The translations under genes and the position numbers were made by a program. Below, in pieces: positions 29,375 to 55,281 of a DNA stretch of 64,000 nt (its first letter is position 1; the number at the start of each line of letters is the position of its first letter). The notes under the pieces are model-generated. The model worked only from the letters and a program-made list of their open reading frames with translations. It did no database searches and was not told where the DNA came from. This stretch comes from Alternaria dauci (Eukaryota; Ascomycota; Dothideomycetes; Pleosporales; Pleosporaceae), in assembly GCF_042100115.1 (NCBI RefSeq), contig NC_091272.1:2604001-2668000 (forward strand), written 5' to 3'.

Positions 29375-30218
29375 TTGATTCAAACTACAATTTCTGTCAC
29401 ATACGACCATAGGACACTGAAAATTAGGCTTCCCGTCCGCTTAGCCATATACAAGCAGTGTACCGGCGGATTAGTAGTTAGGTGGGTGACCACTAGCGAA
29501 TCCCCGCTGTTGTATGTTTTTTGCTCTGTCTGTGGTAAGATACACGAAGAGAGTCAAGGGTTGGCGCGCCACGAAACGACACACAAGCCAAAAACGAAAT
29601 GCTCAGTATGCGGGAAGGGCTTCAAGCTTGTGGGCGCCTTCACGCCATGAAAGGGAAAAATCGAACGCCACATCTGTAGTCGCCTAGGTAGAGTATCGCT
29701 CTACAAAAGAAGATTATTAGCTCTTCTGTAGTTACCTACTAGGGTGTTCGATTTTTGCCTTGTATGGCGTGTCCTCAAGAACCACGAGCGCCCTCATGAC
29801 ACGGACATAGCCCGACCAGCAGCCCGTCTCGGTAAGAAGAGGAGACGTTCGCCAAGTCCGCAACCCGTCGCCCACGAGAGTGTAAAGTCGCTTTTTTTCG
29901 GTCTCCCGGGAGGCCTACTGTGTCGCGATAATCATTGGGTTGCAGATTAACGACAGCGACGGCGGCAGCGACGACGGCAGCGATGACAGCATCGACGGCA
30001 GTGATGACTGCATTGACGAAGACAGGCAGCTGTTCTCTATATCCCTCACGCCGCAGGAAGTCCTCGACTTTGTTGCCCGCCTTCTTCCCGCTCTTTCACC
30101 GTCATCCCCCGAGATTGCGCTGCTCATAGAATCTGTTCAATCCCAGGTCAAATCCGCGCCGCCTTTGAACGTACCGGCGATTCACAAGTCGCATACACTG
30201 ACTTCGTGTCTTCAGTAG
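29375..30218 (+). pseudogene. Decayed C2H2 zinc-finger gene
   Basis: A frame at 29375-29650 encodes one complete C2H2 finger (C-x2-C-x12-H-x3-H, FCSVCGKIHEESQGLARHE) and the Cys half of a second (CSVCGKGFKLVGA). It then stops. Shifting one frame recovers an expected His (SRHEREK), so a frameshift is likely. Another frame (29744-29947) gives a finger-like end (RVLKNHERPH) and a basic Ser/Pro linker (GKKRRRSPSPQP). A third (29940-30218) gives a Gly/Ser/Asp-rich acidic stretch. Between them, 29680-29740 contains short inverted repeats (CTACAAAAGAA / CTCTTCTGTAG) and may be a small insertion. An intron-rich intact gene cannot be excluded but looks less likely. Confidence 0.5.
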
Positions 30219-55134: not shown

Positions 55135-55267
55135 GCGCCGTTGGGCTAGTGGTATGCTATCGCCTTCCCATCAAACGAAGGAGGCGGGGATCACGGGTGT
55201 AAGTACATGAATGATGCCTATTCGAATCATAGACCTAACAGTAAGCAGTCAAACCCCGTACGGCGCA
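55135..55267 (+). tRNA. tRNA-Gly (anticodon CCC) with an 11-nt canonical intron and a 50-nt GT-AG insert in the T-loop
   Basis: Acceptor stem GCGCCGT (55135-55141) pairs 7/7 with ACGGCGC (55260-55266), discriminator A55267. D-arm GGC-TAGTGGTAT-GCT (55144-55158). Anticodon stem TCGCC (55160-55164), loop TTCCCA then A, anticodon CCC at 55167-55169. An intron at 55171-55181 sits at the normal 37/38 site, and the 3' stem GGCGG (55183-55187) then pairs. Variable loop GGATC. T-stem ACGGG (55193-55197) pairs 5/5 with CCCGT (55255-55259). The T-loop is T54, then a 50-nt insert (55199-55248), then TCAAAC. Without the insert the loop is TTCAAAC, a standard seven-base T-loop. The insert starts GTAAGT, has CTAAC (55235-55239) and ends GCAG. 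A T6 run follows at 55276. The alternative is a pseudogene with a chance insertion, but no stem base is damaged. Confidence 0.78.
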
Positions 55268-55275
55268 GTGCTTTC

Positions 55276-55281
55276 TTTTTT
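55276..55281 (+). terminator. RNA polymerase III T-run terminator
   Basis: Six T residues, preceded by CTTTC, begin 9 bp after the tRNA discriminator base. This is the usual Pol III stop signal and supports an expressed tRNA gene. Confidence 0.7.

Follow-up and report, generated by a model that had tools for sequence, protein, structure and literature searches.

The interrupted tRNA-Gly(CCC) gene

The window, meaning the whole 64,000-nt stretch of Alternaria dauci DNA analyzed here, contains a tRNA-Gly(CCC) gene that has an 11-nt intron at position 37/38 and a 50-nt insert at position 54/55 (Table 1). The gene lies between an HMG-box-like gene and a SEC11-like gene (other strand), both named by eye from their translations. 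A 5S rRNA gene is also present in the window, at 29399-29518 on the plus strand (76 bits). One protein encoded in the window, 558 aa long, shares 97% identity with proteins of Alternaria alternata and A. tenuissima and 94% with a protein of A. panax, as befits an Alternaria species.

The letters and stem pairing given in the original prediction were reproduced, including an acceptor stem with 7/7 pairs, a T-stem with 5/5 and an anticodon stem with one G-T pair. The D-stem has 3/4 pairs (13-22 is T-T); ARAGORN marks the D-stems of the Asp and Pro genes described below in the same way. When the window is submitted as is, ARAGORN reports 0 tRNA genes, even with anticodon-loop introns of up to 150 nt permitted. 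With the 50-nt insert left out, it reports a tRNA-Gly(CCC) with an 11-nt anticodon-loop intron, the tRNA-type intron that had been described.

The borders of the insert were re-derived and, as proposed, cannot slide. The insert had also been said to carry the signals of mRNA introns in this genome, and signals of the same kind are visible by eye in three introns of the neighboring HMG-box-like gene (window 54.03-54.40 kb), which have GTACGC or GTATGT, CTAAC and AG. A chance GT-AG stretch was considered and rejected: of the 127,880 50-mers in the window (both strands), only the tRNA insert combines a donor of the form GTRNG and an AG at its end with a CTRAY motif whose A lies 9-12 nt from that end.

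Table 1. Features of the window gene (window positions) and inserts in the other interrupted tRNA genes
Gene	Feature	Position	Strand	Basis or remark
Gly(CCC), window	Whole gene	55135..55267	+	
Gly(CCC), window	Exon 1: acceptor 5' strand, D-arm, anticodon stem 5' strand, anticodon CCC, A37	55135..55170	+	Sequence, ARAGORN
Gly(CCC), window	11-nt intron at 37/38	55171..55181	+	37/38 rule; ARAGORN puts the 11 nt one base earlier
Gly(CCC), window	Exon 2: A38, anticodon stem 3' strand, variable loop, T-stem 5' strand, T54	55182..55198	+	Sequence, ARAGORN
Gly(CCC), window	50-nt GT-AG intron between T54 and T55, donor GTAAGT, acceptor GCAG	55199..55248	+	Sequence, ARAGORN
Gly(CCC), window	B-box-like TATTCGAATCA within the intron	55219..55229	+	6 of 9 defined consensus bases; alone not significant
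Gly(CCC), window	Branch-site-like CTAAC, branch A 10 nt from intron end	55235..55239	+	
Gly(CCC), window	Exon 3: remaining T-loop, T-stem 3' strand, acceptor 3' strand, discriminator A	55249..55267	+	Sequence, ARAGORN
Gly(CCC), window	T6 run then GC, Pol III terminator-like	55276..55281	+	Type seen after most tRNA genes examined
Arg(CCT)	51-nt GTAAGT...TACTAAT...TAG at 53/54			Found by Rfam search blind to GT-AG
Gly(GCC)	54-nt GTAAGT...CTAAC...TAG at 57/58	L150 on C2		A-box pattern, blind to GT-AG
Arg(TCG), Asp(GTC), Pro(TGG), Ser(CGA), Leu(CAA)	T-loop introns			GT-AG patterns anchored on the T-arm
Arg(TCG), second gene	Intron at 53/54			Pattern match; exons placed by BLAST
Leu(CAA), second intron	49-nt GT-AG in D-loop	C1		Noticed by eye after the T-loop intron pointed to the gene; confirmed by uninterrupted C7 copy
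Pro(TGG), second intron	55-nt GT-AG stretch in anticodon loop, apparently at 34/35			

Other interrupted tRNA genes in the genome

The proposal of a spliceosomal-looking intron in a nuclear tRNA gene, with two splicing systems perhaps needed, is supported at the sequence level, and the insert is not a single-gene oddity, because eight further tRNA genes contain the same kind of insert. In the 34.9-Mb genome (10 contigs), nine tRNA genes with eleven GT-AG introns were found, a lower bound, as are the copy numbers given below. Nine of these introns are in the T-loop, at 53/54 (four), 54/55 (four) and 57/58 (one), one is in the D-loop, and one is apparently inside the anticodon, at 34/35; none is placed at 37/38, where most of the interrupted genes have a canonical intron as well. 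The Leu and Pro genes apparently contain two GT-AG introns each.

The introns are 49-55 nt long, and all eleven have GT-AG termini and a CTRAY branch site with the A 9-12 nt from the end. The donors are GTAAGT (eight), GTATGT (two) and GTAAGA (one), and the acceptors are CAG (five), TAG (five) and AAG (one). Seven of the eleven introns can slide by one base, unlike that of the window. Because GT-AG patterns led to six of the nine T-loop introns, the ends of these six were partly selected for; the three found without asking for GT or AG (window Gly-CCC, Arg-CCT and Gly-GCC) are all GTAAGT...AG. A boundary-free scan of the DNA read for T-arm-interrupted tRNAs recovered 6/8 interrupted genes, all with a GT-AG register, and one chance match (L118); the Ser and Leu arms do not fit the script, and most of the scanned loci had been fetched by GT-AG patterns.

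With the GT-AG inserts removed, all eight genes read are called as tRNAs by ARAGORN, with fully paired acceptor and T stems (G-T counted). The ninth, the second Arg(TCG) gene, lies outside this set and was deduced from BLAST. ARAGORN agrees on the names of Gly-CCC, Arg-CCT, Asp-GTC, Ser-CGA and Gly-GCC, and labels Arg-TCG as Leu-taa, Pro-TGG as Gln-ttg and Leu-CAA as Ala-cgc. These labels differ because anticodon-loop introns leave several registers, and the three anticodons were assigned by the 37/38 rule.

The Pro gene was presumed to be such from two marks of eukaryotic Pro tRNAs, the D-arm TGGTCTAGTGGTATGATTC and a discriminator C. Its apparent 55-nt anticodon-loop intron is the least certain of the eleven: ARAGORN still calls a tRNA (Tyr) when the stretch is kept, and no empty site covers it. 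If the gene has instead one long 37/38 intron, the anticodon would be TGT and there would be no 34/35 intron. The Pro T-loop intron is independent of how the anticodon loop is read.

An RF00005 search of the genome covered 63 of 931 candidates, and none of the six Gly-GCC or five Asp genes seen later was picked up by it. Of the seven pattern searches, only one yielded more matches than its reversed-pattern control, and gene identification therefore rests on the folds. The GT-AG T-arm pattern gave 19 matches (reversed control 46), all of which were scanned and yielded 3 tRNAs; a second such pattern gave 79 (control 110), from which 30 loci were scanned together with 15 further regions, yielding 4 tRNAs. 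Among 33 A-box matches (control 36), 20 were read and 12 were tRNAs, with 3 more in known tRNA genes. The pattern that gave the second Arg(TCG) gene had 16 matches (control 29) and one further pattern had 23 (control 11), each with 4 tRNAs among those checked. The last pattern had 47 matches (control 62), including one known case, the Leu D-loop. The scan script is suited to tRNAs of the common D-arm form alone; the Ser and Leu genes were picked out by eye among 15 loci, and other genes of the Ser/Leu form may have been passed over.

The remaining pattern gave 25 matches (control 56), among them one tRNA and one putative further case, at C1:5416684-5416741(+), with the structure GTTCG/GTAAGG...CTAAC...TAG/ATTCC and a near-perfect B box, CGTTCGATTCC, within the intron. 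The start GTAAGTTC is found in 5 of 12 introns, compared with 0 of 51 intron-like window stretches, one of which is the window tRNA insert.

Several other features were encountered during these searches. Anticodon-loop introns are present in 14 of the 39 ARAGORN tRNA genes in loci L009-L048. Of 58 Rfam tRNA matches, 17 cluster at C3:3344209-3399162, near the end of C3, in a region resembling a mitochondrial genome fused onto a nuclear contig. Upstream of the tRNA-Ser(AGA) gene at C7:1601287 (L034), a tRNA-Ser-like 3' half (variable arm and T-arm) ends a few nucleotides before the gene, and is either a tandem tRNA or a fragment.

Filled and empty sites, and Pol III-type signals

The spliced sequences exist as plain tRNA genes, as judged from uninterrupted copies and paralogues. 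Of the six Gly(GCC) genes, a single one (L150, C2) carries the 54-nt insert, which over the length of the gene is all that distinguishes it from L151 on C5. The Leu(CAA) gene on C7 is uninterrupted at both places where the C1 gene contains introns (D-loop and T-loop), with 38/38 and 41/42 positions identical to the intron-free query, and a Pro-like paralogue on C3 runs without interruption through the T-arm and the 3' strand of the acceptor stem (30/30). These empty sites point to the gain of single introns, with loss being less likely. The exons of all six Gly(GCC) genes (L148-L153) are identical while their flanks and most of their 37/38 introns vary, which makes them a clean set for dating intron gain.

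The two Arg(TCG) copies found both contain the 53/54 intron. Their exons are identical at 72/72 positions (from BLAST, in which 52 of 65 columns match and the 37/38 intron accounts for a 13-nt gap, together with the 3' exon), whereas their introns are identical in 39 of 53 alignment columns (exons versus introns, Fisher p 2e-6) and are still recognizably related (z 4.8, 0/300 shuffles). The suggestion that the insert is a recent intron gain thus fits Gly(GCC) but not Arg(TCG), whose introns have diverged between identical exons. Introner elements, a mobile intron family, would be expected in many near-identical copies; in the 66 pairwise comparisons of 12 introns (the C1:5416684 candidate included), the next z values after this pair are 3.3, 3.3 and 2.8, and a common origin of the introns is not demonstrated by this set.

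The alternative that fares best, while still unlikely, is that these loci are tRNA pseudogenes, redundant copies disrupted by insertions, in which either the resemblance to GT-AG introns is incidental or splicing serves no purpose. According to the accessible parts of a 2014 review, eukaryotic tRNA genes with insertions in the D- or T-arm are for the most part redundant copies, supposed to be pseudogenes (Yoshihisa 2014, PMC4090602). Genes with the same anticodon and no GT-AG intron exist for Gly-GCC (five), Asp (five), Arg-CCT (one) and Leu-CAA (one), so the interrupted Gly(GCC), Asp(GTC), Arg(CCT) and Leu(CAA) copies could be dispensable. No intact copy was found for Arg-TCG, Ser-CGA or Gly-CCC in an insensitive copy search; for a second Gly(CCC) copy, the genome was searched at the DNA level with sensitivity only to long near-identical stretches. 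Such absence is weak evidence, since the BLAST-type search missed the known C1 Leu copy, and the Gly(TCC) genes (three seen) may read GGG by wobble. Against decay stand the fully paired acceptor and T stems and the branch sites at 9-12 nt in 11/11 introns, which random insertions would not be expected to possess. The identical exons and diverged introns of Arg(TCG) argue that selection holds the exons, and together with the T-runs after 8/8 genes they make decayed pseudogenes unlikely.

Such T-runs are characteristic of the ordinary genes as well. A run of T5 or more occurs within 45 nt downstream of 8/8 interrupted genes, 47/48 ordinary nuclear tRNA genes and 110/4000 random places, and T4+GC follows 8/8, 38/48 and 64/4000, respectively. 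Upstream, a YATCRA motif is present in 6/8, 33/48 and 263/4000, and a TATA in 3/8, 26/48 and 378/4000. The second Arg-TCG gene was left out of these counts, and two genes of the mitochondrial-like cluster were excluded from the ordinary set.

The internal promoter is split in several genes, which speaks against a functional reading and for pseudogenes; the presence of the upstream TATA in only 3/8 also speaks against a functional reading. The four introns at 54/55 and the one at 57/58 split the B box, and the Leu(CAA) D-loop intron splits the A box. The four introns at 53/54 leave [A]G-TTCRANNCC, nearly a whole B box, where the intron's final AG joins TTCRANNCC. Possible substitute B boxes are present within the Pro (GGTTCGACATC) and Gly-GCC (AGTTCGACTCA) introns; p is 0.057 over the five verified introns that break the B box and 0.10 when every verified T-loop intron, nine in number, is counted. 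Only the addition of the putative C1:5416684 case brings it to 0.004, a post hoc value.

It is very unlikely that the loci are simply spliced within Pol II transcripts that then either release the tRNA or yield none. Introns of the GT-AG kind normally characterize Pol II transcripts, and the window tRNA sits between two protein genes, but T4+GC lies directly downstream of every gene counted and YATCRA upstream of most, as in ordinary tRNA genes. A Pol II transcript, one of the options raised by the original prediction, is less likely because the Pol III-type terminators are kept.

An equally slim chance is given to ectopic introns cut by the tRNA splicing endonuclease at a bulge-helix-bulge (BHB) motif, a mechanism known from archaea, Cyanidioschyzon and nucleomorphs. 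In the portions of that literature available, the ectopic introns of archaeal and red-algal tRNAs occupy similar positions (D-loop and T-loop, including 53/54). A four-pair central helix, allowing any of nine registers, is possible in 2/9 T-loop introns (Arg-CCT and Leu-CAA) by a crude test without a positive control, and GT-AG ends and branch sites play no role in the endonuclease pathway. Both the BHB intron and the Pol II-only locus are disfavored. An assembly error is rejected as very unlikely, as the inserts recur at independent loci, nine in all.

Interpretation and relation to known systems

The reading preferred here, with a probability of about 0.8, takes the insert for a U2-type spliceosomal intron and its host for a functional tRNA gene transcribed by Pol III; nine nuclear tRNA genes would together contain at least 11 such introns. 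Pol III would make the precursor, and the nuclear spliceosome would remove the D-loop, anticodon and T-loop introns first; end processing and export would follow, after which the endonuclease would take out the 37/38 intron where one is present. End processing, export and the tRNA splicing endonuclease all read the folded tRNA, and for this reason the spliceosome is placed before the endonuclease. Genes with introns at 54/55, at 57/58 or in the D-loop, in which the A or B box is damaged, may rely on upstream elements.

A broader reading of the sequences is held with less assurance, though it is still favored. In this lineage, spliceosomal introns would have entered nuclear tRNA genes time and again, at the D-loop, the anticodon and the T-loop, making the spliceosome a required tRNA maturation enzyme ahead of the endonuclease; splice signals would replace or relocate internal promoter elements, and in one Pro(TGG) tRNA an mRNA-type intron would interrupt the anticodon itself, with a tRNA-type intron beside it.

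If these readings are true, mRNA-type introns would link the spliceosome to tRNA supply and allow a test of whether the spliceosome has general access to Pol III precursors. Sites that occur both filled and empty within one genome, between identical exons of ~70 nt, would then serve as clean natural cases of intron gain. Annotation of tRNAs would also miss such genes, as ARAGORN is blank on the unedited window gene, Arg-CCT gene and Gly-GCC locus.

Nuclear tRNA introns are the textbook case of a non-spliceosomal pathway acting at one position, and the GT-AG inserts are set apart from the canonical eukaryotic 37/38 introns by where they lie, how long they are, their sequence signals and the machinery presumed to remove them. 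Searches of the open-access literature (PMC) turned up no paper recognized as reporting spliceosomal introns in nuclear tRNA genes, and a prior report elsewhere is possible. The fission-yeast U6 RNA is a Pol III transcript with an mRNA-type intron, and lichen-forming ascomycetes have spliceosomal introns in their nuclear rDNA. The latter resemble the present introns in being spliceosomal-type introns in an ascomycete non-coding RNA gene, and differ in that the host there is an rRNA and here a tRNA.

By position, the precedents are the extra introns of Cyanidioschyzon merolae and nucleomorphs, which are found in the D-, anticodon and T-arms, up to three per gene (PMC3978253, PMC4090602, as far as the available text goes). 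The 2014 review, in its accessible parts, credits non-canonical tRNA introns to nucleomorphs and a red alga (PMC4090602). In contrast to the reading preferred here, these introns in C. merolae rely on BHB motifs and the tRNA endonuclease, and GT-AG ends and branch sites are unmentioned in the sections available.

By sequence signals, the precedents are fungal. The accessible text of a 2017 paper (PMC5832005) describes fungal U3 and U6 genes that hold spliceosomal introns, with copies with and without an intron in one genome; the U3 introns have GT-AG ends and RCTRAC and are termed normal spliceosomal introns, and a title cited there states that an intron can sit in the small nuclear RNA gene for fission-yeast U6. 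According to that text, U3 and U6 are the only small structured RNAs in which interruption is known to be frequent. On this partial view of the source, the introns reported here share with those of fungal U6 and U3 their short length, their GT-AG ends, a branch site of the RCTRAY type and a host gene for a small structured RNA. They are unlike them in that the host is a tRNA, several isoacceptors and three arms are affected, and most of the genes have a 37/38 intron as well.
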